From IMG/VR virus record IMGVR_UViG_3300031857_011472, positions 1 to 24,944 of that record: 24,944 bases of DNA. One strand, 5' to 3'. Below the pieces are notes generated by a model. It did not search any database, was not told the DNA's origin, and worked only from the letters and a program-made list of their open reading frames with translations. Numbering within the stretch: the first letter of the stretch is position 1; the number at the start of each line of letters is the position of its first letter. The stretch is from a virus. The position numbers and the translations under genes are program-made. Of the stretch, positions 1-17,352 are shown one piece after another.

Positions 1-629
1 GGTGATACAGTTCCACCAAAGAATTCAAATGCATCATCGTTAGCATAGATAGTTTGAACATTCTCAATGATTGTTCCACTACCAACACCACCTAATGTTA
101 GTGCGTTTATTTCCGAGTTTGGCATTGCTGCAATTCCTGCATATTCAATTCTTACAAAACGAAGAACACCACTATTATCTAAATCGTTTGTTCCACCAAA
201 TGGTCTACCTATACCACCTTCGATTGTTGGTTCTGATGTTCTATTGGTTTTTGCTCTACCCAATATAACAATACCACCCCAATCACCAGGTGCCTTTTCA
301 CCATTTGCTCTACCTGATGTAAATACAATTGGTTTTGTTGCAGTTCCTTCCGCAATTAATTGTGCTCCTCTTTCGATGCACAATGCTCCCTTTTCAGCTA
401 TATCAGATACGATTGTTGTACCCGGTTGAATGATAAGTTTTGCTCCATCGGTTACATATACATAACCTTTCAATGTCCAAACTTTATCCGCAGTTAAAGT
501 TGTTGTTGTATTAATGTTGCCGGTAAGTGTAGTTGATGTTGGAATGTTAATCGGTCCATCACCACCACCTAATTCTTTTTCGCAACTCAATAATCCAAAT
601 GCTAAAATAGCTACTAATAGTTTTCTCAT
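1..629 (-). CDS. Surface lipoprotein with right-handed beta-helix type repeats (3' end outside window)
   Basis: The translation starts with a lipoprotein signal peptide (MRKLLVAILAFGLLSC, lipobox LLSC, then EKE). A short Gly/Thr linker and a repeat-rich region follow, with phrases such as LTADKVWTLKGYVYV, IIQPGTTIVSD, PGDWGGIVILG, VLRFVRIEYAG and ALTLGGVGSGTIIENVQ. This pattern is typical of a Bacteroidetes lipoprotein family with parallel beta-helix repeats, often encoded beside TonB-dependent receptors. About 209 residues are visible and the rest lies beyond the left edge. The start codon overlaps the stop of the TonB receptor gene in an ATGA junction, so the two are probably co-translated. 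A role as the surface partner of the receptor (substrate capture) is inference; the ligand is unknown. Confidence 0.8.
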   Translation of the reverse strand, partial: MRKLLVAILAFGLLSCEKELGGGDGPINIPTSTTLTGNINTTTTLTADKVWTLKGYVYVTDGAKLIIQPGTTIVSDIAEKGALCIERGAQLIAEGTATKPIVFTSGRANGEKAPGDWGGIVILGRAKTNRTSEPTIEGGIGRPFGGTNDLDNSGVLRFVRIEYAGIAAMPNSEINALTLGGVGSGTIIENVQTIYANDDAFEFFGGTVS

Positions 630-2875
630 AAATTCAAATTTAATGTTAATGAAATTGTTTGTTCGTTGTTTGTTTTTATCAAATTTCGGTTTTGTAACTT
701 TTGATAATAGATTGATGGTTGCGCAAGTACATCACCTATTGCCAATTTTATTTCACCTTTATTCAATTTGTGTAAAAGAGTTATATCCAATACATCTCTA
801 CTATTTTCAAAGATGTTTGGGTAACCCTGAAATCCTACTGCTGATATTCTATCTCCAACTCTATTGTAAGTTATGTTGATAGTATTTTTCTTTTTGTGTA
901 TATTCACTCCACCATTTAACACATAGTTTGATTGTCCCTGCAATTGTCTTTTCATACCATTCACTTCTACTTCGGAATTCATTACCGAAAGATTTGTGTA
1001 GAAATCAAACCAACCATTTATTTTTTTACGAACTTCCAACTCAACACCATATAGGATAGCTGAATTGGGATTTGTATAAGTTAATAATAAGTTTGATGGA
1101 ACTGAACCATCTGCTACAATTTGTTCAATTGGTTTAATGAAGTTCTTACCAAATAAGGAAAGTGAAATATTCTCACCTGCCTTTGGATACCATTCGTATT
1201 TAAGGTCTACATTATATATGTCAGATTTTTCTAACTTTGAGTTTCCTAATATTTGTGCGTTTCTTACAAAATCATAATAAGCAAAATTAGCTACTTCTCT
1301 AAACTCTGGTCTTGCTAATGTTTTACTTAATGAAAATCTATACTTTGTTTTTTCTTCGTTGTATGAAAGATTTAGGGATGGTAGTATATCCAAATACTCT
1401 CTATCTACATTTACCTTCTGTCCACTAAAATCTGCGGTTGATACATCAAATAAATTATACTCACCTCTTAATCCGGTGTTTAATTTCCATTTACCGAATT
1501 CAGTATCATACATTGTGTAAAGAGAACCCAAATCAAAATCGGCTGTGTATTTATCCGTATTGTTTGTAATTTCATCCATCAAATCAGTTGACTGATATCT
1601 AAATACTCTAGCATTGAATCCTCTAATCTTTTTTAAGTATCCACCACCTACTTTTACTTTACCAAATTCTTTATTGATATTACCATTAAAAGAGTTCTCA
1701 TCCATTACACTCCAAAAACGATATGTATCTCTCCATGCGGTTTGGTATGGTTCGTTTACTCCTAATGATTTTGTAATTGGATTAACTCTATAATCGGGTT
1801 GCTCTCTAAAGATGTAATTGTATCCTAAATTAAAATCTAATGTTTTAATCTTACCATCGAATTGTGAATTAATTACAACGTTATTAATATGATTTGACGA
1901 TGTACTTCTTACGTTCTGAATATTATCAAAATTATCACCATTACGGGTTAGATATGTATCATCGGACTGATAGTTTACTAATGTTTTCCAACTATATCGA
2001 TTTTTACCTAAATAAGTTAAATTTAATAAACCATTTGCAGAAAATCTTTTTGTAAATAAAGTATCTTTATAATCGTATGCTAATTCGGTAGATGATTGAT
2101 AATCTTTTCTATCAATATAGTTTAAAACAAATGAGTTTCTAATTGTAGAACTTAATAATGCATTCCATTTACCTTTTTTATATCCAGCTGATAATCCACC
2201 ATTTAAATTTGGCAATGAAGTAAATCCTTCTACCATTGGGTTACCAAATTGTTTCGTAAATAATCTTTTATCACCATTTCCGCTAATTCTGTATTTGTAA
2301 GTAGATGGGAAGGTGGAAGGGAAATCAGTAGGTTGAACTAACTTGAAATCTTTCGAAGTTGAAACCGAGCCCCAACCACTTCCCAATGAGATATTAAAAA
2401 AGTTATCGGATACTTCTTTTGTTGAAACTTGCACCAAACCACCGGCCCAATCACCTGGTTGATTTGCGGATGCCGATTTAGCAACTATAATATTATCAAT
2501 TAAAGATGTTGGAATTATATCAAATGAAAATGCTCTTCTGTCAGGTTCAGTTGATGGTAATAGGGTTTTGTTTAATAAAGCCGAATTGTATCTATCCGCT
2601 AATCCTCTTACTAATACAAACTTATCGTTTTGTATTGTTACGCCACTTACTCTTTTAAGTGCATCACCCACATTTCTGTCAGGTGTTTTTTTAATAAAAT
2701 CAATAGATACTCCGTCCGAAACTACGGATGAATTACGAATTGTAGTTATTACAGCTGCTTCGGTGGATTTCTTGCCTGCCGAACGGACTGTTACCGTTGA
2801 TAATTGTTTGGAAAATAGGGTGTCTTGCGAATACGTTACAAATGGAAGTAACAATAATAAAAGAAACGATTTCAT
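626..2875 (-). CDS. TonB-dependent outer-membrane receptor
   Basis: 749 residues. The signal peptide MKSFLLLLLLPFVTYSQ leads directly into a plug domain (about residues 25-150) with the landmarks VGDALKRVSGVTIQ, FVLVRGLADRYN, IPTSLIDNIIVAKSASANQPGDWAGGLVQVSTK. A long region of alternating polar/aromatic beta-strands follows, with barrel-like phrases such as YRFSLSKTLARPEFRE and a beta-strand C terminus (ISLTLNLNL). In the family such proteins import siderophores, vitamins, glycans or peptides across the outer membrane using TonB energy. Most Bacteroidetes relatives carry an N-terminal carboxypeptidase-regulatory-like domain before the plug; here it is absent, so the gene is compact. The gene is intact and is followed by an overlapping lipoprotein gene. 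A TonB receptor in a phage is unusual. The substrate cannot be told from sequence. Confidence 0.88.
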   Translation of the reverse strand: MKSFLLLLLLPFVTYSQDTLFSKQLSTVTVRSAGKKSTEAAVITTIRNSSVVSDGVSIDFIKKTPDRNVGDALKRVSGVTIQNDKFVLVRGLADRYNSALLNKTLLPSTEPDRRAFSFDIIPTSLIDNIIVAKSASANQPGDWAGGLVQVSTKEVSDNFFNISLGSGWGSVSTSKDFKLVQPTDFPSTFPSTYKYRISGNGDKRLFTKQFGNPMVEGFTSLPNLNGGLSAGYKKGKWNALLSSTIRNSFVLNYIDRKDYQSSTELAYDYKDTLFTKRFSANGLLNLTYLGKNRYSWKTLVNYQSDDTYLTRNGDNFDNIQNVRSTSSNHINNVVINSQFDGKIKTLDFNLGYNYIFREQPDYRVNPITKSLGVNEPYQTAWRDTYRFWSVMDENSFNGNINKEFGKVKVGGGYLKKIRGFNARVFRYQSTDLMDEITNNTDKYTADFDLGSLYTMYDTEFGKWKLNTGLRGEYNLFDVSTADFSGQKVNVDREYLDILPSLNLSYNEEKTKYRFSLSKTLARPEFREVANFAYYDFVRNAQILGNSKLEKSDIYNVDLKYEWYPKAGENISLSLFGKNFIKPIEQIVADGSVPSNLLLTYTNPNSAILYGVELEVRKKINGWFDFYTNLSVMNSEVEVNGMKRQLQGQSNYVLNGGVNIHKKKNTINITYNRVGDRISAVGFQGYPNIFENSRDVLDITLLHKLNKGEIKLAIGDVLAQPSIYYQKLQNRNLIKTNNEQTISLTLNLNL

Positions 2876-2947
2876 AAAGTCATTTAAGTTAGTTCCTCAA
2901 TAACTATGTAATCGTTTCTCTAAATAGGGTATTTCAATATTAAGAAA

Positions 2948-3283
2948 TTATGAAGAAATTCCACAAAGTGTTAAGAATTCAGATGCATTATGTATTACAT
3001 CTTCTGATTTGAATTTTCTTAACATAGCCTCTGCTATTTCCTTTCTATTGTTCATATCATCTACCATACGAATAATTTCAGCAACACCTACAACCATATC
3101 TCTATCGTTTTCATGACCTGGCGCAACTTCTACTTCTTTGATTGGAGTATTATCGTTTCCACATTTGTGACAAGTATATGGATGTTTCCTACCTTCGGAT
3201 ATTTTCCAAGTCCAATCACACTTATCGCAAATTACTTTACCATTAGAAACTTTTTCTTTTAATAAACTACTTAATCTTATCAT
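2948..3283 (-). CDS. Zinc-ribbon protein with N-terminal capsid-targeting-like tag
   Basis: 111 residues. It begins MIRLSSLLKE, almost the same as the next gene upstream, with an L-x-E motif whose Glu is residue 10. A four-cysteine zinc ribbon follows (C19-x2-C22, then C38-x2-C41, in the context ICDKCDWTW and YTCHKCGND). The C-terminal ~60 residues look helical (VVGVAEIIRMVDDMNNRKEIAEAML). The start overlaps the stop of the preceding gene in a TAATG junction. Inference: the first ten residues target the protein to the phage prohead and are removed by the prohead protease, leaving a small internal head protein. The function of the ribbon is unknown. Confidence 0.75.
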   Translation of the reverse strand: MIRLSSLLKEKVSNGKVICDKCDWTWKISEGRKHPYTCHKCGNDNTPIKEVEVAPGHENDRDMVVGVAEIIRMVDDMNNRKEIAEAMLRKFKSEDVIHNASEFLTLCGISS

Positions 3284-3567
3284 TATTTTAATTTATTATA
3301 AAATTTATCGTATATAGTTTGCTTAATTTGTATAGGTAATTTTAATTTTCTATCTTTAATATAATCATCTAACTTGACCGATTTTACGGAATACTTATAA
3401 TCAAATTTAGCCATTGGTTTTGATTTTAAAGTTATGTCTACCAATGTATCTCCATTTTTATCCCAGCCCTTAGATGGATAAGATAAAACGGTATCTTTTA
3501 AAAATTCTTCAAAAGAAACTTTTTTTGATTTTTTTACTTCTTTTAATAAACTACTTAATTTTATCAT
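3254..3567. repeat. Direct DNA repeat encoding the N-terminal tag (copies 3254-3283 and 3538-3567)
   Basis: Two 30-base copies on the plus strand (3254-3283 and 3538-3567) differ at one position and contain the block TTTTAATAAACTACTTAAT. On the minus strand each is the first ten codons of a gene, from ATG to the L-K-E codons. The third tagged gene (start 4177) shares the peptide pattern (MIELKSILNE) but its DNA has diverged more. Identity confined to the 5' ends of unrelated genes points to duplication or copying of the tag as a module. Confidence 0.75.
3283..3567 (-). CDS. Small basic protein with N-terminal capsid-targeting-like tag
   Basis: 94 residues, lysine-rich, with no recognised domain. 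I chose the internal ATG giving MIKLSSLLKE rather than an upstream in-frame start that would run back into the 202-aa gene. This choice matches the start of the two neighbouring tagged genes and leaves a 1-base gap after the upstream stop. The remainder (KKSKKVSFEEFLKD, WDKNGDTLVDITLKSKPMA) predicts mixed alpha/beta. The TAATG junction with the next gene suggests coupled translation. The tag ends in L-K-E at residue 10. A head-internal role is inferred from the tag alone. Confidence 0.72.
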   Translation of the reverse strand: MIKLSSLLKEVKKSKKVSFEEFLKDTVLSYPSKGWDKNGDTLVDITLKSKPMAKFDYKYSVKSVKLDDYIKDRKLKLPIQIKQTIYDKFYNKLK

Positions 3568-3568
3568 A

Positions 3569-4177
3569 TTATTTACATTTTTTCCAACCACCACCTTTTG
3601 ATTTGTAGTTCTTTGCAGCCCATCCGTTTGCATACGCAGATGGATATACATCGAATTTCTTTTTAGCGGCAGATTTAGATGCTGACCATTTACCTGGGTC
3701 AGTTGGACAATTCTTTTCCAAGAATAATTCCAGTTTTTCTTCTATTGTCATGATTTCGTTTTTCTTTTTACCAGCACAATGTGCTTTTTGTGAGAATCCT
3801 TTTGGGTTAGAACAATTGATTGAGTTCTTATATTTTGTACTCCACTTTTCTTCCAATCCTTCACTAGCTCCTGTCTTTACAAATGTTGGTTTTTGACCTT
3901 TTGATTTTTCACCACCTTTCTTAGCATCTCCTGCTTTGGATTGTGCAGCTCTTTTTCTTTTTACAAATGTAGCAATACCATCTTTACCTAACTTAGCTGC
4001 TTTTTCTTTTGATAAACAAGCTGCATATGAATCTCCTTTCTCACTATCTCCACATTTACCAGCTTTCTCTCCTTTAGTATTATATCTATCCCAGCCACCA
4101 CCAGTAGTAGAGCCTTCACCACCTTTACCAAACCATTTGCGGAGGTCTTCGTTTAATATTGATTTTAATTCAATCAC
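3569..4177 (-). CDS. Basic mosaic protein, DUF5872-like N-terminal domain, with capsid-targeting-like tag
   Basis: 202 residues with a GTG start. The tag MIELKSILNE comes first, with L-N-E ending at residue 10. A domain with DLRKWFGKGGEG, GGGWDRYNTKGEKAGKCGD and SYAACLSKEKAAKLG, then FVKRKRAAQSKAG, resembles the DUF5872-type domain known from viral proteins. A second motif block reads KYKNSINCSNPKGFSQKAHC, and a third C-terminal module reads KKKFDVYPSAYANGWAAK then GGGWKKC. All three blocks recur in large-phage proteins. The protein is very rich in Lys and Gly, which suggests nucleic-acid contact. The GTG overlaps the stop of the 35-aa gene by one base (TAGTG). A packaged DNA-associated head protein is my inference. 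Confidence 0.75.
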   Translation of the reverse strand: MIELKSILNEDLRKWFGKGGEGSTTGGGWDRYNTKGEKAGKCGDSEKGDSYAACLSKEKAAKLGKDGIATFVKRKRAAQSKAGDAKKGGEKSKGQKPTFVKTGASEGLEEKWSTKYKNSINCSNPKGFSQKAHCAGKKKNEIMTIEEKLELFLEKNCPTDPGKWSASKSAAKKKFDVYPSAYANGWAAKNYKSKGGGWKKCK

Positions 4178-4284
4178 TATTTTAATTTATTTAATATTGC
4201 TAAATTTGCATCTATTAATTTCTTTTTCTTCAAACCACTTCTTCTACTTCTCATTGGTTTTGGTTTTTTTGCTGCACTTCCCAT
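4177..4284 (-). CDS. 35-aa highly basic microprotein
   Basis: Begins MGSAAKKPKPMRSRRSGLKK and ends in a short helix-like tail (LIDANLAILNKLK); about a third of the residues are Lys or Arg. It fills exactly the space between the CsgG-like gene stop (4 bases away) and the GTG of the 202-aa gene, with which its TAG stop shares one base. This fit and the bias toward small basic residues support a real gene. It has no known family. A nucleic-acid-binding or head-internal role is possible but unproven. Confidence 0.55.
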   Translation of the reverse strand: MGSAAKKPKPMRSRRSGLKKKKLIDANLAILNKLK

Positions 4285-4288
4285 ATTA

Positions 4289-5017
4289 TTACTTAGCGAA
4301 TACGCCCTTTTTAATTAATTTATCTAAAATGTTTGCACATGCTACATCCAATGCTTTCTTAGTTGAAATACTAATTGTTGATTGGTTAAACTTAATTGGG
4401 TCTATTGAAGCATCCGAAACTAATGTTAATTGTCTAGTTGTTTTTGCTTCACCCAAACCAGATGCTGCTATAATTGCTCCAGTTTCTGCATTTGTGAATC
4501 TAACCTGTAAACCTAAACGAGTTACCATATTATCTTTAATACCATCCTTTAGGTTGATAGTTTCATCTTCCGATACTGAATAATCATACACCTCAATTTC
4601 TACAAAGTAGTGTGCTAATTTAATATTTCCTCTACCATTAATTTTGTTTTCAGAAATTCCAGCGTTTGATGCTTTGAATTGTTGCACCATTCTGTTTTTG
4701 ATTTCAGTTTTATCTTCGGTGAATTCGAATCTATTAAGATTATCCAAATATTCTAATACGATGTTTGCAACACCCAATCCAACTCTCTTTTCTTTTAGTT
4801 CAGGATACATTTCGTACACTTCTTCACCAATACCACACTTTAGAATTTGTATGTACTTTTTAGGTCCTTCATAATCCATATAAGCAGATATATCTCTTTT
4901 CTTTTCAAAATCCGCCTTAAATTCTTCCGTCTTTGTACTTCCTATTGTTTGCGCAGTTACTACACTTACACCACTCGTAATCAACAATATACCTAATAAT
5001 ACTAATAATTTTTTCAT
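4289..5017 (-). CDS. Secreted CsgG-like protein
   Basis: 242 residues. A signal peptide (MKKLLVLLGILLITSGVSVV, probably cleaved after TAQ) is followed by a CsgG-type fold: KRVGLGVANIVLEYLDN, KLAHYFVEIEVYDYS, VTRLGLQVRFTNAETGAIIAA and a C-terminal helix with FNQSTISISTKKALD and ANILDKLIKK. CsgG forms the outer-membrane curli secretion pore, and CsgG-like proteins are known in several marine T4-like phages. Unlike bacterial CsgG there is no lipobox cysteine. It shares several landmarks with the 218-aa protein starting at 14516, so the two are probably paralogs. It sits directly after an outer-membrane-barrel candidate. Whether it makes a pore is not shown by the sequence. Confidence 0.68.
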   Translation of the reverse strand: MKKLLVLLGILLITSGVSVVTAQTIGSTKTEEFKADFEKKRDISAYMDYEGPKKYIQILKCGIGEEVYEMYPELKEKRVGLGVANIVLEYLDNLNRFEFTEDKTEIKNRMVQQFKASNAGISENKINGRGNIKLAHYFVEIEVYDYSVSEDETINLKDGIKDNMVTRLGLQVRFTNAETGAIIAASGLGEAKTTRQLTLVSDASIDPIKFNQSTISISTKKALDVACANILDKLIKKGVFAK

Positions 5018-5033
5018 ACATATCTATTTTTTA

Positions 5034-5042
5034 TATAAATAT
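5034..5042 (-). promoter_or_regulatory. Candidate class 2 (late-type) promoter element
   Basis: The coding strand reads GATATTTATATAA about 18-25 bases upstream of the CsgG-like start, in the gap after the previous gene. It matches the ATATTTAT(A/G) motif found in seven gaps of this window, with no TTTG box 20 bases upstream. Confidence 0.35.
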
Positions 5043-5043
5043 C

Positions 5044-5943
5044 TTAAAATTGAAAGTTCGTACCAATCATAAACATAATTGGATTAGATTTCTTATAACC
5101 TACCGATTCTGATAATTTATCCCAAGTTGTGTTATATCTGATATTGGTGTTTAATATAAACCTTTTAGTTATTTTCCAATCCATAGATGTACCATAATAT
5201 AAGTCCAAATTGAAATCATTCAAATATGCTAAATCTGATTCAGTACCATCTTTGAATACTTTGTAGATATCACTCATAGCAAATATTTGTGGTGATATAT
5301 TAACTCTTTTTGTTTTAAGTGTATATGTGTACATTAACATTCCTTTGTAAGTAGTTTGTGATGATGCTGGCATTTGTGGATAAATCAAATCTAAAAAATC
5401 ACCATTGATATCAATCGTATATTTTCCTTCCCACTCACCTTGATATGAATCCCAATATGTTTTTGATGCCGTTAAACTATATCCAAATGTTCCAAACTTT
5501 TTAGTTCTGAATACATCTATAAATGAAATGTTAATATCTTTTTGGAAATCAAAATCCGTTGAATAAAATGTTTGTATCGTTGTTGTTCTCTTATCGGTAT
5601 TTCTACTAAAACCATAACCTACTCCATAATAATTCCATATAGGATTTATTGATGCGGCAAATGAGTGTCCCCATTTACCATTCATTGATGATTTGCTATA
5701 CCCTAAATTTAAAGTAGTTGATACCTGCTTTCCTATTATACCAACTGATAAGTTTGATGATGAAAGAACATCTTTTGAAAAATCAATATAAGATTGTAAT
5801 ATACCCACATCATTCCAGTCATCGCTCTCTCCAAATAATTCTTTTGCAGATAATTGTAATGTATCAGGTTTTACAATTTGTGCGTTTGAAACAAAACCTA
5901 TACAAAATAAGAATACTATGATTATTAGTTTTTTCATATTCAT
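5044..5943 (-). CDS. Outer-membrane beta-barrel candidate
   Basis: 299 residues. The signal peptide is KKLIIIVFLFCIGFVSNAQ. Long amphipathic beta-strands follow (VSTTLNLGYSKSS, WNYYGVGYGFSRN, TFGYSLTASKTYW, MLMYTYTLKTKRVNISPQIF, FILNTNIRYNTTW), and the chain ends in a strand with a C-terminal phenylalanine (MIGTNFQF), the usual barrel-assembly signature. No family is recognised. Two starts are possible, MNMKK here or the second Met six bases downstream (5937); the class 2 promoter motif overlaps the first, which slightly favours the second. It directly precedes the secreted CsgG-like gene and may act with it at the outer membrane (inference). Confidence 0.7.
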   Translation of the reverse strand: MNMKKLIIIVFLFCIGFVSNAQIVKPDTLQLSAKELFGESDDWNDVGILQSYIDFSKDVLSSSNLSVGIIGKQVSTTLNLGYSKSSMNGKWGHSFAASINPIWNYYGVGYGFSRNTDKRTTTIQTFYSTDFDFQKDINISFIDVFRTKKFGTFGYSLTASKTYWDSYQGEWEGKYTIDINGDFLDLIYPQMPASSQTTYKGMLMYTYTLKTKRVNISPQIFAMSDIYKVFKDGTESDLAYLNDFNLDLYYGTSMDWKITKRFILNTNIRYNTTWDKLSESVGYKKSNPIMFMIGTNFQF

Positions 5944-5949
5944 AAATAT
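5942..5949 (-). promoter_or_regulatory. Candidate class 2 (late-type) promoter element
   Basis: The coding strand reads TTTATATTTATGAATATG immediately after the terminator hairpin and overlapping the first possible ATG of the 299-aa gene. If used, the message would be nearly leaderless. Same ATATTTAT(A/G) core as in six other gaps. Confidence 0.28.
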
Positions 5950-5952
5950 AAA

Positions 5953-5978
5953 AAAGGGAGAAACGATGTTCTCCCTTT
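5953..5978 (-). terminator. Rho-independent terminator after the DUF2589 pair
   Basis: A ten-base-pair stem (AAAGGGAGAA with TTCTCCCTTT) encloses a six-base loop. On the coding strand it is followed by a T run (CCCTTTTTTATATTT). It lies 3 bases after the stop of the 158-aa gene. It is nearly identical in sequence to the hairpin at 7384-7411. Confidence 0.85.
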
Positions 5979-5981
5979 AAT

Positions 5982-6458
5982 TTACTTTACATTTGGGTCT
6001 TCTAGATTTTTGATATATTCATCAATTAATCTACTTACGGCTTCAGGTTTATCATCCGCCTTAAACTTAACCTTTATTTTAGCCATACCTGTTTCATGTG
6101 GATTAAATCCAGAATCAACCTCAATACCTTTGATATTGTGTTCATATCCTTTTTTCTTAAATAACCCTAATAGAGATTTTTTAAGACTGGATACTTCTTT
6201 ATCTTCATCACCAAATATAAGTCTACAAGAGAACTCAATATCTAGTTCATCCAATCCAATAGATGAGTGGTCTGCTAAAATATAAAGAGGTACAACCAAA
6301 TCCTTACCACCTATATTAAAAGTGTGAGTTTTGGGTGTACCATCTTCATTGAAATAGTTTCGGAGAGCATTAATATGCTGTCTTTCACTTATACCTTGAG
6401 AAACCATGGCGGCCTCTAAAAGACCGCCAACTAGTTCCTCTACATTTAATCTTGCCAT
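5982..6458 (-). CDS. DUF2589-like protein, short paralog
   Basis: 158 residues, no signal peptide. The N terminus MARLNVEELVGGLLEAAMVS is helical. A beta-rich part follows with FNIGGKDLVVPLYILADHSS, LDELDIEFSCRLIF and MAKIKVKFKADDKPEAVSRLIDEYI. The order (VPL segment, a beta strand pattern x-x-D-I-E-F, a final VKVKFK strand and an amphipathic helix) follows the DUF2589 family, whose function is unknown. The larger DUF2589 protein lies 24 bases upstream and the two probably interact (inference). The gene ends in a strong terminator. Confidence 0.6.
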   Translation of the reverse strand: MARLNVEELVGGLLEAAMVSQGISERQHINALRNYFNEDGTPKTHTFNIGGKDLVVPLYILADHSSIGLDELDIEFSCRLIFGDEDKEVSSLKKSLLGLFKKKGYEHNIKGIEVDSGFNPHETGMAKIKVKFKADDKPEAVSRLIDEYIKNLEDPNVK

Positions 6459-6482: not shown

Positions 6483-7079
6483 TTACTTTCTTTCTTCAGT
6501 AAGTGGAATTAAAGATGGTTCTAACATTTGAGTTAGGTAATCTGATAATTTCAACATACCTTCAGTTGCTGGTAATTGTTCAGCGTGTACTTTTACATTG
6601 TATTTTGCTGAGTTGTCAGTACTTCTAGTGTTTTCTTTGTTGGTTGCAACTTTACCTGCTACTTTAGCGCTAAAGCTCATACCCCACCATCTTCCGCTTG
6701 CAGATGCTTCATAGCTGTTTTCAGTAGCTACCGTATCTTTTGATGCTTCTGATGTTTTTACTTCCATAGAGAATTCAATATCTGCTGAAGTAATTGCTAA
6801 TGAAGGTAATGGTACTAATGGTAACATCGGAACTTTGTTATACAATTTTTGTATTTCTTGTTCTCCAGTTTGACCGTTTGTAACAACACGATTCATTTCT
6901 ACATCTAATGAACGAGCAGATGTTTTACCTGTCTTTTCATCTTTTACGAAAGCTACTTCAGAAATGTATTTCCAAGTTACTTCGTTTAATTTTGCCTGTC
7001 CTTTAGCCATTCCAACGATAGGGGAAACAATTAGTTCCTCTATTGGAAGTCCTGCGAATTGGTCTGCGATTCCTGCCAT
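6483..7079 (-). CDS. DUF2589 family protein
   Basis: 198 residues, cytoplasmic by prediction. It begins MAGIADQFAGLPIEELIVSP and continues with IVGMAKGQAKLNEVTWKYI, VPMLPLVPLPSLAITSADIE and FSMEVKTSEASKD. A long Ala/Ser/Lys region (FSAKVAGKVATNKENT, YNVKVHAEQLPATEGMLKLS) and the end LTQMLEPSLIPLTEE follow. The N-terminal helix, the VPL(V)PLPSL segment and the IEF-type strand are the marks of DUF2589 proteins, found in many Bacteroidetes and some phages. Biochemistry is unknown; the repeated beta structure would suit a self-assembling structural protein (inference). It lies between a zinc-ribbon gene and the second DUF2589-like gene. Confidence 0.75.
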   Translation of the reverse strand: MAGIADQFAGLPIEELIVSPIVGMAKGQAKLNEVTWKYISEVAFVKDEKTGKTSARSLDVEMNRVVTNGQTGEQEIQKLYNKVPMLPLVPLPSLAITSADIEFSMEVKTSEASKDTVATENSYEASASGRWWGMSFSAKVAGKVATNKENTRSTDNSAKYNVKVHAEQLPATEGMLKLSDYLTQMLEPSLIPLTEERK

Positions 7080-8530: not shown

Positions 8531-8848
8531 TTACCATTCAGCTGGCTTCTCTTTGAATTCATCACCTTCTTTCTTCTTTGGTGCTGCCGCTGGAGCTGCT
8601 GGTTTAGCCGTTCCACCGCTATTTCCACCGCCACCATTAACAATTACAGTTTTACCTGCTGATTGTTGTTGTGTGTTTTGGATGTTGATTACCGGTGCAG
8701 CTTGTTGAACTGCTGGTTTTTCTTCATCACCACCTGTTAATTTTGTTGTTACCCATCCACCTACACCTAAAGTTATAGTTGAGATAAATCCGATGATTAC
8801 ATTCTTAATCGATGAACCACCACCTTGTTGTTCTTGTTCGTCTGCCAT
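8531..8848 (-). CDS. Small one-TM protein with low-complexity Ala/Pro/Gly tail
   Basis: 105 residues: an acidic, Gln/Gly-rich start (MADEQEQQGGGSSIKN), one TM or buried glycine-rich helix (VIIGFISTITLGVGGWVTTK), then a disordered tail with VINIQNTQQQSAGKTVIVNG, a run of Gly/Asn and AAPAAAPKKKEGDEFKEK. There is no signal peptide and no known family. Together with the 32-aa, 220-aa and 92-aa genes it forms a cluster of four small membrane proteins at the end of the surface operon. A scaffolding or membrane-tethering role is a guess. Confidence 0.62.
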   Translation of the reverse strand: MADEQEQQGGGSSIKNVIIGFISTITLGVGGWVTTKLTGGDEEKPAVQQAAPVINIQNTQQQSAGKTVIVNGGGGNSGGTAKPAAPAAAPKKKEGDEFKEKPAEW

Positions 8849-8874
8849 TTTATGTTACTTTTTCTTGTTTAAAT

Positions 8875-9246
8875 TTATAACTTATTAAAATCGGTAATAC
8901 CAATCATTTTACCACTTGCATCATATACAGCTACTCTATATGCCGATGCGGGTAATGCGGTAGTATATACCTTTAATATATTATCTCCAGAATTTGCGTA
9001 CATTGTTTCTTTTGATACCACTCTATTTGCAATATCTAAAATTTTAACTGTCACATTTCCTGCAGTTTCTAACTTAACGTTCATCGCCACTTCTGAAGTG
9101 ACAAATTGTGATTGTAACTTAATACCAGCGGATGCTGACATATTTAATTCTGCATTTGGATTTACAGGTTGAATTATATCAATTGGAGATTTTCTACATC
9201 CAACCAAGATGATAGCTCCAAATAATACTAATAATACTTTTTTCAT
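8875..9246 (-). CDS. Mini-lipoprotein with sorting-domain-like fold (second copy)
   Basis: 123 residues. The lipoprotein signal is MKKVLLVLFGAIILVGC, followed by RKSPIDIIQPVNPNAEL. The rest is one beta-sandwich-like module with NVTVKILDIANRVVSKETMY, GDNILKVYTTALPASAYRVA and VYDASGKMIGITDFNK. The layout (strand, I-x-D/N-x-x-G/N-x-x-V turn, N-x-L-x-V..L-P-x-x-x-Y-x-V-x-V) resembles the type A C-terminal sorting domain of Bacteroidetes type IX secretion substrates, here with no cargo in front. It is homologous in layout to the 117-aa lipoprotein next to it, likely a tandem duplication. Confidence 0.68.
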   Translation of the reverse strand: MKKVLLVLFGAIILVGCRKSPIDIIQPVNPNAELNMSASAGIKLQSQFVTSEVAMNVKLETAGNVTVKILDIANRVVSKETMYANSGDNILKVYTTALPASAYRVAVYDASGKMIGITDFNKL

Positions 9247-9258
9247 TTTAATACCTTT

Positions 9259-9612
9259 TTAGTTTATTATCAGTAACGTCTTACCTATTTGGACACTATT
9301 CTCATCTTCCAAAGATAAATATAAATATCTAACAGGTAACGATTTTGTATATAACTTTAAGGAATTTATTCCATTTTTACCAATTATTCTTTCTCTCGCT
9401 ACAACATTTTGACCTATTGAATCAAAAAGAGTAAGTGTAAACACTCCCTCTGATTTTAGGTTGAAGTTAATTTCACCTTCATTTACAATACTTACTTCTT
9501 TCACAGAAAATATATCGGTTGGAGTTGGTGGCGGAGTTGGTTCTACATATACCTTGCGGCATCCGATTATAAAAATCACACAACATAATATTATAATTTT
9601 AATCCATTTCAT
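9259..9612 (-). CDS. Mini-lipoprotein with sorting-domain-like fold (first copy)
   Basis: 117 residues. The lipoprotein signal is MKWIKIIILCCVIFIIGC followed by RKVYVEPTPPPTPTD, a proline linker. One beta module follows: VSIVNEGEINFNLKSEGVFT, LTLFDSIGQNVVARERII, GINSLKLYTKSLPVRYLYLS and VQIGKTLLIIN. This is the same design as the 123-aa neighbour, including GCRK at the acylation site. The start overlaps the stop of the lectin-protein gene (TAATG). An anchor or adaptor on the outer membrane for the secreted cohesin/dockerin-like proteins is a possible role (inference). Confidence 0.68.
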   Translation of the reverse strand: MKWIKIIILCCVIFIIGCRKVYVEPTPPPTPTDIFSVKEVSIVNEGEINFNLKSEGVFTLTLFDSIGQNVVARERIIGKNGINSLKLYTKSLPVRYLYLSLEDENSVQIGKTLLIIN

Positions 9613-12188
9613 TATTGTATCTTTATTTTTACACTAGTTCCATTCACATTCACAGCTTCATTAGTAGCTATGGATAGTAACCCTAATGAGTTAGGGATTT
9701 GTTTATTTAATTTGAAACCCAATCGGTATTCGGTAGACCCATCCAGAAGTTCACCAGAGGTGTTTATAGAACCCAAATTAATAAATGAACCTTTATCTGT
9801 CCCAAAGTTTATAGGGGAACCTGTGGTTCTAAAATTGGTTCCTGTGTACTTTAGAATGGTGTTATCATAGTTTATCTGAAATTGAGTTCCTACTATTTGA
9901 TTTAAATTTGGATTGAACTTAATGTATGCAATTAGGCTATCACCTTTTATTTCCGAAATGATGTATGCGGTTGGTTGAAGTGTTACCGATTTCAAACCAA
10001 AGTTTGCTGACATTGTGGTGATTCCGTTTGAAGGTGGTGTTGCTGAGTGAGATAAGTTTACATCTCCTTTCCAAGTTACTGCCAAATTGTATGTATAATT
10101 CGTTACACCATCTAATAAACTAAATCCATATTCTTTTCCTAAATAATTTGGAAATTGTGCCCAATTAGATTTACCAATCGTTGAGTATGTAGAATCGGAT
10201 ATAATCTTCATTGTATTATCCAAAGTGTAACTACTAATCAAATCTTTTGCACCAGTTAGGTTTTGTAATAATCTAAAACAATCTGCTTCATTAAAAATAC
10301 CATTATCATCTACATCTGCATTTTTGAATTGAATACCATATGTAAATTCGTTTCCACTTTGATTACCGAATATCCCACCATTAGATACTTCTTTGAATGC
10401 CAAATAAACATCGGATACCGTTACAATACTATTATAAAGGGTTTTTAATTGAACAGAATCATATTGTTGAAATTCTAATTTGTGTTGTTTGTATGCACCA
10501 TTTTGTGCAAAATTTATATTAGAAGTAAAGGCCCAATTATTGTAATTAGCATTTCGTATATTAGCAGCAAATGCCGAAGTTCCATCAGTTACTTTTGGCA
10601 ATGATGATGGAACAATATAGTGTGCCCAATATGTAGATGTTTGTTGATAAGTTACAGGTCCATCATACACATCTAATATTTTTACTTTAGAAATTGTTGA
10701 AGGTTGGGTATTTCCAAATCTTGTCAAATCAATGTAAAGAGTTGTAGTTCCATTTGATATATTAACATAAGAAAATTCCGCTTGACCGGCTGAAATTGTT
10801 GCTTTATATGAAGATGGTTCGTTTACAAATTGATAACTCAATCCCCATGCTCCCCATTCGGAAGTTGTGATACCATTACGAGTTGAACCAGGATAATTAT
10901 TTTTTCCTTCAACTACTTTAATGTAAACTTCTTTTGTTTGCCCAATTGTTATAACTCCAGCATGCACTGCCATAGCAGGAATGTAAGAGTCATTGGTGTA
11001 TATATCAGTTCCCCAACCACCACCACCTGCTCCTGTGATTGTCATTTTATATATCTTACCAATATCAGTTTCACTATATGCAGTCATATCGTTTTGGGTT
11101 GCGGCTTGGATTGCAGATGAATATAGTTTTGCGGTATCTAATTGATTTGAAAGATAAACTTTACCCAAACCATTTAGTGCTTTGTAATCACCACCAGATG
11201 TCCAAACTGATGTGGCATCGTTTCTTTTGAATAGTTTTGATGAAAAATTACTTTCAGTTATATTAGAACCAAAATTAAAATTAAATACCGCTTTTAAAGT
11301 TTCTCCATTTGAGTGAACAACACTATTAGAATAAAATTCAGTAAATGTTGCATCATCAGGATTAGTCCAAGTTCCAAATTCAACTACATAAGCACAACTA
11401 AAATTATTAGGTAAATCGTTCCATTGGTTTCCACCACCCCATTTAGTTACTGCATAATCTTCATTACCACTATTGTTTGGTTCACCACCTGCCCAGTTAT
11501 TATATTGTCCAACTATGTTTCCGGCAGTTTGTCCGTTTGATGTTTTGATTAGAGTTCCAGCTTCAGGCCCTGCATCAATTCTCCATTGTCCTTCAACAAC
11601 TTCATCGGTAAGAGCAAACCAAATACTAGATTGCGGAACATTGGCGAATATAAAAGCATCTTCCGAAGCAGATGTTATTGTTACCAAATATCCCGTCTGT
11701 CCTTTGAATGTTTGTTGAGATGATAGTGTTCTTGCATTTATATAAGTTGCTCCTGTTGATATAGGTCTATAAAAGTGTCCATTAACTCCATTGTAAAAAT
11801 ATCCAACAGGATTTACAGTTGCAGCTACTGAAATATTAATATCACCCGTTACCGAACCTGTATTTATTTTTAGAGATGTTAATGCCGTATTAATACTAGC
11901 CATTGTTCCCGTTACAACTAAACGAGTTTTATTACCACTTAAAGTAAATCCACTTGCTGCCGTTAAACCTGTTGTTGTGTTGAGATAGAATGTAGTACCT
12001 GAAGGTGGATTAACTAAACTAATTGATGCCAATAAAGTTGCAGTTGAACTAAACCCACTTAAAGAGAATCCACTTGCATCCTGTGCCGATGTATTTACCG
12101 TAAATGATTTAGGGTCTGGTGCATTTACTGCTTGCCCAAACCCAAAAATCGTTACAAAAGATAATAAAATTGTTAATAATATTCTCAT
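9612..12188 (-). CDS. Large secreted protein with C-type lectin, dockerin-like and cohesin-like modules
   Basis: 858 residues. The signal peptide MRILLTILLSFVTIFGFGQA is followed by an Ig/cadherin-like Ser/Thr-rich module to about residue 125. A C-type lectin domain spans about 126-272 with the canonical calcium/sugar motifs EPN (YNNWAGGEPNNSGNEDYA) and WND (GGGNQWNDLP) and the closing strand CAYVVEFG; EPN is the mannose-type signature. After a long beta-rich middle comes a dockerin-like stretch (TVSDVYLAFKE near 590, then DVDDNGIFNEADCFRLLQNL near 625-646). A C-terminal cohesin-like beta module (about 740-858) includes GTQFQINYDNTILKYTG. Probably exported and displayed on the cell surface or released. 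It is TAATG-coupled to both neighbours. The lectin ligand is unknown. Confidence 0.8.
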   Translation of the reverse strand: MRILLTILLSFVTIFGFGQAVNAPDPKSFTVNTSAQDASGFSLSGFSSTATLLASISLVNPPSGTTFYLNTTTGLTAASGFTLSGNKTRLVVTGTMASINTALTSLKINTGSVTGDINISVAATVNPVGYFYNGVNGHFYRPISTGATYINARTLSSQQTFKGQTGYLVTITSASEDAFIFANVPQSSIWFALTDEVVEGQWRIDAGPEAGTLIKTSNGQTAGNIVGQYNNWAGGEPNNSGNEDYAVTKWGGGNQWNDLPNNFSCAYVVEFGTWTNPDDATFTEFYSNSVVHSNGETLKAVFNFNFGSNITESNFSSKLFKRNDATSVWTSGGDYKALNGLGKVYLSNQLDTAKLYSSAIQAATQNDMTAYSETDIGKIYKMTITGAGGGGWGTDIYTNDSYIPAMAVHAGVITIGQTKEVYIKVVEGKNNYPGSTRNGITTSEWGAWGLSYQFVNEPSSYKATISAGQAEFSYVNISNGTTTLYIDLTRFGNTQPSTISKVKILDVYDGPVTYQQTSTYWAHYIVPSSLPKVTDGTSAFAANIRNANYNNWAFTSNINFAQNGAYKQHKLEFQQYDSVQLKTLYNSIVTVSDVYLAFKEVSNGGIFGNQSGNEFTYGIQFKNADVDDNGIFNEADCFRLLQNLTGAKDLISSYTLDNTMKIISDSTYSTIGKSNWAQFPNYLGKEYGFSLLDGVTNYTYNLAVTWKGDVNLSHSATPPSNGITTMSANFGLKSVTLQPTAYIISEIKGDSLIAYIKFNPNLNQIVGTQFQINYDNTILKYTGTNFRTTGSPINFGTDKGSFINLGSINTSGELLDGSTEYRLGFKLNKQIPNSLGLLSIATNEAVNVNGTSVKIKIQ

Positions 12189-16610: not shown

Positions 16611-17183
16611 TTAAATTAAGTTCCATCCTTTTTGTAGGTAAGAATCAACCTTTTTGCTTTTTACAAATTCCATTTCTCCATTTGGTCCTTGCAACATTAC
16701 TCTTTCATTTCTACCAGGTTTTTTATCCTTTGTAATAGTTTCTGAATATTGTCTTGTTGGGTGGGTGATGTCAATGCCATCGATTGCATCAATTGCTCTT
16801 TGTACCAAAACGGCTTCCAATAATCCGGCATCACCAAAAAATTCATCCGCATCTTTCCATTCGGTTTTATCTGCTTTAAATTCAACTTTACCCAAATTAT
16901 CAGTTTCCACAACAAACCAAGGATAACGTATTGTTTTACGAACTTTATTTTTTAATGTATCTTTTTCAAAGTACACTACTGGTGCATCTGTTTTTGATAT
17001 AGGTTTAGGATTTACTAATACGAGTTCATCTTCTTTATTACCTATTCTAACTGTTATAATTCTCTTATCTATATTAACATCCGCTGCATTAAATACAATA
17101 CCTTCTAATTTAGAGGTGGCTTGTTTATAGGAGAATACATCGTCTGCCGTTATCGTACTACTTTCAATTTTTTGTACTTTCAT
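16611..17183 (-). CDS. Peptide-deformylase-like protein lacking catalytic residues
   Basis: 190 residues from the ATG giving MKVQKIESSTITADD; this start overlaps the upstream gene by 20 bases, and longer readings would lie mostly inside it. The layout follows peptide deformylase. LEGIVFNAADVNIDKRIITV stands where GLAAPQ-x-G-x-x-K-R-I/V lies. LVNPKPISKTDAPVVYFEKD stands where the INPxI...VVYEEGCLS strand lies. VRKTIRYPWFVVETDNLGKV resembles VRRPxxxxV..D..G. QRAIDAIDGIDI (128-139) stands at the QHExDHLxGxxF helix. The metal ligands are missing: no Cys in the second motif, and HExxH is replaced by R-A-I-D-A. A C-terminal addition reads LQGPNGEMEFVKSKKVDSYL. Cyanophages carry active deformylases; this one looks repurposed. 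Confidence 0.55.
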   Translation of the reverse strand: MKVQKIESSTITADDVFSYKQATSKLEGIVFNAADVNIDKRIITVRIGNKEDELVLVNPKPISKTDAPVVYFEKDTLKNKVRKTIRYPWFVVETDNLGKVEFKADKTEWKDADEFFGDAGLLEAVLVQRAIDAIDGIDITHPTRQYSETITKDKKPGRNERVMLQGPNGEMEFVKSKKVDSYLQKGWNLI

Positions 17184-17352
17184 TTTGTTTATTTTTATGT
17201 TCTTGTATTTTTTCGTTAATAAAATCAATTGAGCCTTCATGTAGAGATTCATACCCCATATAGCCCATATAGTATTTTATATTTTCTGGATGTTCTTCTA
17301 ATTCTTTTTTTATTTCGTCTACACTTCGTAGATGTTTTGTTATTTTTGTCAT
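17164..17352 (-). CDS. 62-aa helical protein
   Basis: It begins MTKITKHLRSVDEIKKELEE, followed by HPENIKYYMGYMGYESLHEG and a Lys/Glu/Asn-rich end. Predicted helical and soluble, with no known family. Its start overlaps the stop of the cupin gene (TAATG), and its end overlaps the deformylase-like start by 20 bases, which supports operon membership. The tail is low complexity. Confidence 0.55.
   Translation of the reverse strand: MTKITKHLRSVDEIKKELEEHPENIKYYMGYMGYESLHEGSIDFINEKIQEHKNKQNESTKN

Follow-up and report, generated by a model that had tools for sequence, protein, structure and literature searches.

In bacteriophage T4 the capsid-targeting sequence (CTS) is a stretch of ten residues, of which positions 4 and 7 serve targeting and positions 8 and 10 serve processing, and the prohead protease gp21 cuts after L/I-x-E; Asp at residue 10 leaves targeting intact but prevents processing (PMC9026906). 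The letters of the T4 record give the N-terminus MKTYQEFIAE for both ipII and ipIII. Nothing but the CTS is conserved among the internal proteins of T4-like phages, and it has previously been suggested that these phages use the CTS to acquire varied cargo (PMC9026906). One tagged T4 protein, IPI, is an injected antirestriction protein that inhibits a restriction enzyme.

Several other phage systems resemble the locus described here in part. Phage P1 loads its Dar defence proteins into the head by an N-terminal signal and some of them are cut by the prohead protease Pro, but the signal is a different one (30 residues were shown to be sufficient) and comparable modular polyproteins are not reported there (PMC9024508). 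The S80 proteases of phiKZ-type giant phages and SPN3US are distant relatives of gp21 that also cut head proteins after Glu, although the motif is A-x-E in SPN3US and S-x-E in phiKZ, and the cargo is different (PMC5694885). Polyvalent proteins (Iyer et al., 2017) are multidomain phage proteins that are thought to be injected along with the DNA; they join enzymatic domains and possibly process themselves via metallopeptidase domains (PMC5512222), whereas the small non-enzymatic modules of our locus would depend on the head protease acting in trans. For S-CREM2, a phage with a Synechococcus host, the virion proteome was determined by mass spectrometry and published with coordinates (PMC10665884, Table 3); the available portion of that paper gives presence in the virion without mention of a tag. 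Among the open-access papers searched, none was found to describe the tag for cyanophages or environmental phages, or to place prohead-protease sites at the borders of shuffled cargo modules. The CTS itself is known; the tag in environmental phages and the predicted protease sites between cargo modules would be the new part. We argue, with a probability of roughly 0.8, that the tags described below are T4-type cargo tags and that the internal sites mark cargo polyproteins processed by the prohead protease.

Three tagged genes in a phage with T4-type head genes

The window, by which we mean the whole 24.9-kb virus record analysed, has three adjoining minus-strand genes that begin with a ten-residue N-terminus ending in L-x-E. 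Gene 1 (2948-3283) starts with ATG and encodes 111 residues beginning MIRLSSLLKE (tag 1, 3254..3283), with a predicted cut after Glu10; gene 2 (3283-3567) also starts with ATG and encodes 94 residues beginning MIKLSSLLKE (tag 2, 3538..3567); and gene 3 (3569-4177) starts with GTG and encodes 202 residues beginning MIELKSILNE (tag 3, 4148..4177). The genes are tightly packed: the stop of gene 2 overlaps the start of gene 1 (TAATG), and the stop of gene 3 lies 1-2 bases ahead of the gene 2 ATG. Because neighbouring stops and starts overlap or nearly touch, the start of gene 2 was placed at 3567; the alternative at 3651, which gives a longer open reading frame, is disfavoured. The homologues of gene 3 begin at the equivalent point, with ATG, GTG or TTG, and in 21 of them E10 of the tag is invariant and L4 nearly so. 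Tag 2 is kept as MIKLTNILNE in its homologue in L135.

All three tags agree with the T4 CTS in length (about ten N-terminal residues), in positions 4, 7 and 8 and in Glu at 10: position 4 is Leu, position 7 is Leu or Ile, position 8 is Leu and residue 10 is Glu throughout. The likeness to the propeptides of T4 IPI, IPII, IPIII and Alt thus extends over a ten-residue length, hydrophobic or aromatic residues at 4, 7 and 8, Glu10 and an S77 protease; the letters differ, being MIxLxxILxE in the window and MKTYQEFIAE in T4. Inside the proteins of this phage, away from their N-termini, the strict form of the tag pattern has a frequency of 4.4e-4 and the loose form one of 2.1e-3, so that by chance 2e-8 (strict) to 2e-6 (loose) runs of three tagged genes would be expected among 31 genes. 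The shared N-termini, with Glu at residue 10 in three adjacent genes, had been pointed out in an earlier note on this DNA and are confirmed as a real observation. The same note took the three proteins to be otherwise unrelated, which also holds: they are a Zn ribbon with an acidic domain, a basic protein of 84 residues and three Lys/Gly-rich modules.

Tags 1 and 2 are nearly identical in DNA, which together with the tight packing might mean that a stretch serving translation initiation or regulation, and not targeting, was copied recently. Tag 3, however, uses different codons and still has the same kinds of residue at positions 4, 7, 8 and 10, and distant phages have the same pattern in other letters (M..F..FL.E). 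Glu is residue 10 in 23 of the 25 ten-residue tags that are defined solely by where a module starts, the motif also occurs far from start codons, and tagged proteins are enriched in virions (see below). We consider a copied stretch very improbable, and reject copied regulatory DNA as the cause on the codon-different tags, the internal sites and the virion enrichment.

IMG/VR record G001 (62.9 kb) is 100% identical to window positions 1-6453, and because this identity extends over 6.4 kb we take it to be the same phage. Two further records, G009 (274 kb) and G018 (160 kb), have about 75-92% identity across the window. G001 and G009 have T4-type head genes (large terminase, portal and S77 prohead protease), and G009 additionally has a gp22-like scaffold and a gp23-like capsid protein. 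The gp21-like protease on which the earlier note's reading depended is present in the overlapping record G001 as a gp21-type S77 protease (PF03420, E = 1.6e-29). By this protease the nearest isolates are Microcystis phage Mel-JY01 and Flavobacterium phage immuto, the latter with the cultured host LMO8; immuto and the TonB-receptor-like gene of the window suggest a host in Bacteroidota. That gene (626-2875, minus strand), whose product of 749 residues combines a TonB-receptor plug domain with an outer-membrane beta-barrel domain, is unusual for a phage genome to carry. The window also has two adjoining paralogous DUF2589 proteins (5982-6458 and 6483-7079, minus strand) and a divergent peptide-deformylase-like protein (16611-17252, minus strand; E = 3.9e-7).

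The protease and its expected substrates carry the cleavage motif themselves (a slash marks the predicted cut). The N-terminus of the G001 protease is MKGLLIE/T, and proteases of the window's clade begin M..LLIE/T; the gp22-like scaffolds of this clade have ..KLLKE/A. Since G001 ends before the genes concerned, the sites in the head proteins were read in the close relatives G009 and G023, where the capsid protein has LLDE/A and the scaffold KLLKE/A. Five related capsid proteins contain L/I/V-x-E and then Ala around position 60, close to the T4 cleavage site, and the mature T4 capsid protein aligns just downstream of this motif. The N-terminal sites of the protease and the scaffold are absent from Mel-JY01 and immuto.

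Tagged proteins in related phages and in virions

In related records, MIxLxxILxE tags begin many proteins that are unrelated to each other. The tag described in the earlier note for the three adjacent genes is thus not special to them, being common in related phages; the recurrence of L-x-E at internal module junctions and the place of the Zn ribbon between two such sites, both described below, likewise go beyond that note. Strict-tagged genes number four in G001 (0.046 expected) and five in G009 (0.13 expected); the enrichment is weak in G018 (1 against 0.11). The window's phage type has many more cargo genes than T4. Two zeta-toxin-fold kinases carry the tag, L063:7053-7892 with MISLRSLLLE/V and L069:7821-8573 with MIKLSTLLKE/I, and are candidates for packaging in the head; an HAD-like protein in L003 is tagged in the same style. 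In L090 (the same record as G001), a 927-residue protein at 8674-11457 (minus strand) has the N-terminus MKGLEKFLVE/T, a cytidylyltransferase/NMNAT-like domain and DUF5661, and a 5'-nucleotidase of immuto is tagged in letters other than MIxLxxILxE. A tagged protein of 145 residues lies in the interval between terminase and portal (L090:5837-6274, minus strand; also in L289, L215 and L112), and in other phages the module at its C-terminus (AEYQGREVKLGK...YWSCRKW) is joined to the cargo polyproteins.

A generic motif of two hydrophobic residues, any residue and Glu (PhiPhi-x-E) was also counted. In the region of immuto that was examined, where the tagged genes lie around 102-119 kb, it occurs within residues 4-16 of 15 of the 45 genes, against 6.7% of internal windows (p = 6e-6), and over all genes its N-terminal enrichment was significant in only one (G023) of seven related records, besides immuto. 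The generic motif being significant only in G023 and the immuto region, the analysis turned to specific patterns and to sites defined by modules.

Both tag rules, strict and loose, were fixed before any S-CREM2 sequence was read. The S-CREM2 sample comprises 152 genes in two stretches, six of which match the strict rule. Five of these six are virion proteins, against 21 of the 146 untagged genes (p = 5.5e-4): gp6, a SAM hydrolase (MKDFDSFLEE), gp13 (MKDLHSFLTE), gp14, a kinase (MKRFDAFLTE), gp136 (MQTFSMFFSE) and gp154, a cytidylyltransferase (MKNFSSFLTE). With the loose rule the enrichment in S-CREM2 was not significant (p = 0.12). The tags of S-CREM2 have the form M..F..FL.E (M..L..FL.E in gp13) with Glu10, and like the window's phage it has tagged NMNAT-like cargo and polyproteins with junctions at Glu. 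Two such module polyproteins are in the S-CREM2 virion, gp137 (MNE/DWQK.., with a DUF6321-like end) and gp160 (..NLEE/KKNCWPGY..ISE/GKKDACYHK). Another virion protein, the Cas9-like gp12 (L389:7704-10313, minus strand), has a T4-like site, RFASFMAE/A, at residues 18-25.

For S-SZBM1 the locus numbers of the paper were paired with the record by length and order. In the region examined one of two tagged proteins is in the virion, namely a cytidylyltransferase (MRFRQFIIE/A); the tagged gp85 and the DUF6321 protein gp84, which has the T4-like tag MKTFKQYITE, were undetected. For S-CREM2 and S-SZBM1 combined, p = 4e-4 for the presence of tagged proteins in virions. The S77 protease, the tag positions and the S-CREM2 virions (five of six tagged proteins) together support well the earlier note's reading of the N-termini as capsid-targeting sequences cut by a prohead protease.

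Modules and the motif at their borders

Behind their tags, genes 1 and 3 are built of modules, all coordinates being on the minus strand. Gene 1 has a Zn ribbon (residues 11-50, CxxC..CHKC; 3134..3253) that ends in NTPIKE, the second predicted cut site of the protein, and module G (VEVAPGHENDRDM...; 2951..3133), which is acidic (net charge -5) and is elsewhere either self-tagged or fused. Gene 3 has module A (DLRKWFGKG...; 3848..4147; net +9), ending in the predicted site GLEE; module B with a linker (KWSTKYKNSINC...; 3716..3847; net +4), ending in the predicted site ELFLE; and module C (KNCPTDPGKWS...; 3572..3715; net +10). The predicted mature product of gene 2 is an 84-residue basic protein (3286..3537; net +10) with no family match above the cut-off. 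These predicted mature proteins resemble the T4 internal proteins in being small, mostly basic and mutually unrelated, but the precursors in the window differ in having several modules with a cut motif at each border and a Zn ribbon between two sites.

Genes 1-3 have no Pfam or PHROGs match to the T4 internal proteins IPI, IPII and IPIII, and no enzymatic family matched them above cut-off; DUF5872 (PF19197) scored 16.3 bits against gene 3, below its curated cut-off of 27.5. The AlphaFold model of gene 2 is uninformative (mean pLDDT 51), and that of gene 3 (pLDDT 60) was used only for the disorder of the tag and of the A/B linker.

Relatives have these modules either as single tagged genes or in fusions of different order, and [LIVMF]-x-E still precedes the module starts. 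Module G is self-tagged in L010 (MIKLSSLINE/VEVGQG), L014 and L135 (MIKLSSLINE/VEVGQGHEND or similar), and is fused behind module C as VMKE/VEVGQ in L020 and L133. Module B follows ..GLEE/KWSTKY in the window, as opposed to a separate tagged gene, MIKLTDIINE/KWSQKYK, in L007/L162. The Zn ribbon exits as ..NTPIKE/VEVAPG in the window and as ..NTPISE/DLRKWF in L135. The internal junctions of the window are thus NTPIKE/VEV in gene 1 and GLEE/KWS and LFLE/KNC in gene 3.

The set [LIVMF] is wider than the L/I of T4, and the motif has a background of 2.3% per residue. When similar upstream sequences were collapsed to give non-redundant contexts, it preceded module A in 34 of 48, module B in 7 of 7, module C in 37 of 42, module E (the DUF6321-like module of relatives, absent from the window) in 17 of 24 and module G in 6 of 8. 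The upstream sequences of these five unrelated modules are non-homologous, and the border motif is shared. Without collapsing, the residue preceding DLRKWF of module A is Glu in 93 of 100 distinct instances (80 with [LIVMF]xE), and [LIVMF]xE precedes module B in 15/15 and module C in 88/94 instances. Zn ribbons are preceded by the motif in 37 of 48 distinct instances and followed by it in 11 of 11 when the next module is A or G. Internal junctions of the T4-like form 'TFxxF..E' are not a main argument, because only three were matched by the fixed pattern.

It could be that only the N-terminal tags are cut and that the internal motif is a conserved module edge, the modules staying linked in one protein. 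Cleavage at the borders is an inference, depletion of the motif inside module A was not significant (24 against 29.9), and the B/C border (FLE) lies in a fairly confident helical stretch of the gene 3 model. The A/B border (residues 79-110), on the other hand, is predicted to be disordered, and a mere module edge does not sit easily with one motif before five unrelated modules whose upstream sequences share no homology, or with the finding that modules A, B and G are tagged genes in their own right in some cases and parts of fusions in others. Phages that lack the protease also carry the same modules without Glu at the border, which we turn to now; on this evidence we regard permanently linked modules as unlikely.

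The S77 protease is present in 10 of 10 T4-like isolates and in none of 11 non-T4-like isolates. DUF6321 as a family is carried by 552 phage records. Module E, recognized as DUF6321 (PF19846) in S-BM3 with 87.5 bits against a curated cut-off of 28.5, has Glu at its border in all eight T4-like isolates that carry it, with a hydrophobic residue at P3 in six (RN05-S, S-SSM7, S-CAM7, MC09, Sf-CH5 and S-BM3); P-SSM4 and Syn19 have the junction Glu alone. Among the 11 phages that lack the protease, 10 encode the module as a separate gene whose start coincides with the module start or lies near it, with no site; in the other, S-B28, a truncated module is fused to other sequence. Module C likewise stands alone without a site in DSL-LC04 and C72C1, both of which lack the S77 protease. 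The comparison of S77-positive and S77-negative phages gives p = 2e-5, a value that overstates independence because lineage differs between the groups as well. Module E of T4-like cyanophages (e.g. L082) has an internal L-N-E (GGLNEKGRKS), a possible extra cut site, where several protease-lacking phages have L-N-A. In the podoviruses P-SCSP1i, HTVC201P and HTVC115P (L378, L381 and L376) a stand-alone DUF6321-like gene lies next to or near the capsid gene, a proximity that suggests a head role for this gene beyond T4-like phages.

Proposed packaging, processing and delivery

Under the reading of tags and internal sites as a T4-type packaging and processing system, the tags would, in the infected cell, direct the three proteins to the core of the prohead under assembly, where the S77 (gp21-type) protease would cut after [L/I/V]-x-E at residue 10 and free the mature proteins in the head. 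The internal [LIVMF]-x-E junctions of genes 1 and 3 would probably be cut by the same protease, so that one tagged precursor gives several products: the Zn ribbon and module G from gene 1, and modules A, B and C from gene 3. The mature pieces, which are mostly basic, would remain associated with the DNA and probably be ejected together with it. Packaging and cutting in this phage are predicted from its sequence and strongly supported by the comparisons above. Ejection into the host and an effector function of the three proteins, which the earlier note had also proposed, may be expected by analogy with T4.

The tagged products could instead be packaged and function solely within the head, condensing DNA or forming part of the core as basic proteins. 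This is the less probable course, though one to be taken seriously: each of modules A, B and C is basic, as is the product of gene 2, and several podoviruses encode the DUF6321-like module next to capsid genes. It accounts poorly for a tag that is also found on zeta-toxin-fold kinases, a nucleotidase and an NMNAT-like protein, which have no obvious head function, or for the tagged SAM hydrolase and kinase in S-CREM2 virions, and the tagged IPI of T4 is an injected inhibitor.

Beyond this phage, it seems fairly likely that environmental T4-superfamily phages encode shuffled cargo polyproteins of small modules, each beginning directly behind a prohead-protease site, and that these polyproteins bear a single tag and are cut apart in the prohead into separate virion proteins. 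The Zn ribbon would then be an excised module, and tag and site together a code for the packaged set. If true, this adds polyprotein-like precursors cut by the head protease, which were not found for T4 in the literature searched. Head cargo is delivered at the first moment of infection and is usually known only through mass spectrometry of purified virions. If the tag and the cut site prove readable, sequence would suffice to predict what many uncultured T4-like phages carry in their virions, including kinases, nucleotidases, NMNAT-like enzymes and families of 'unknown function' such as DUF6321 and its relatives.
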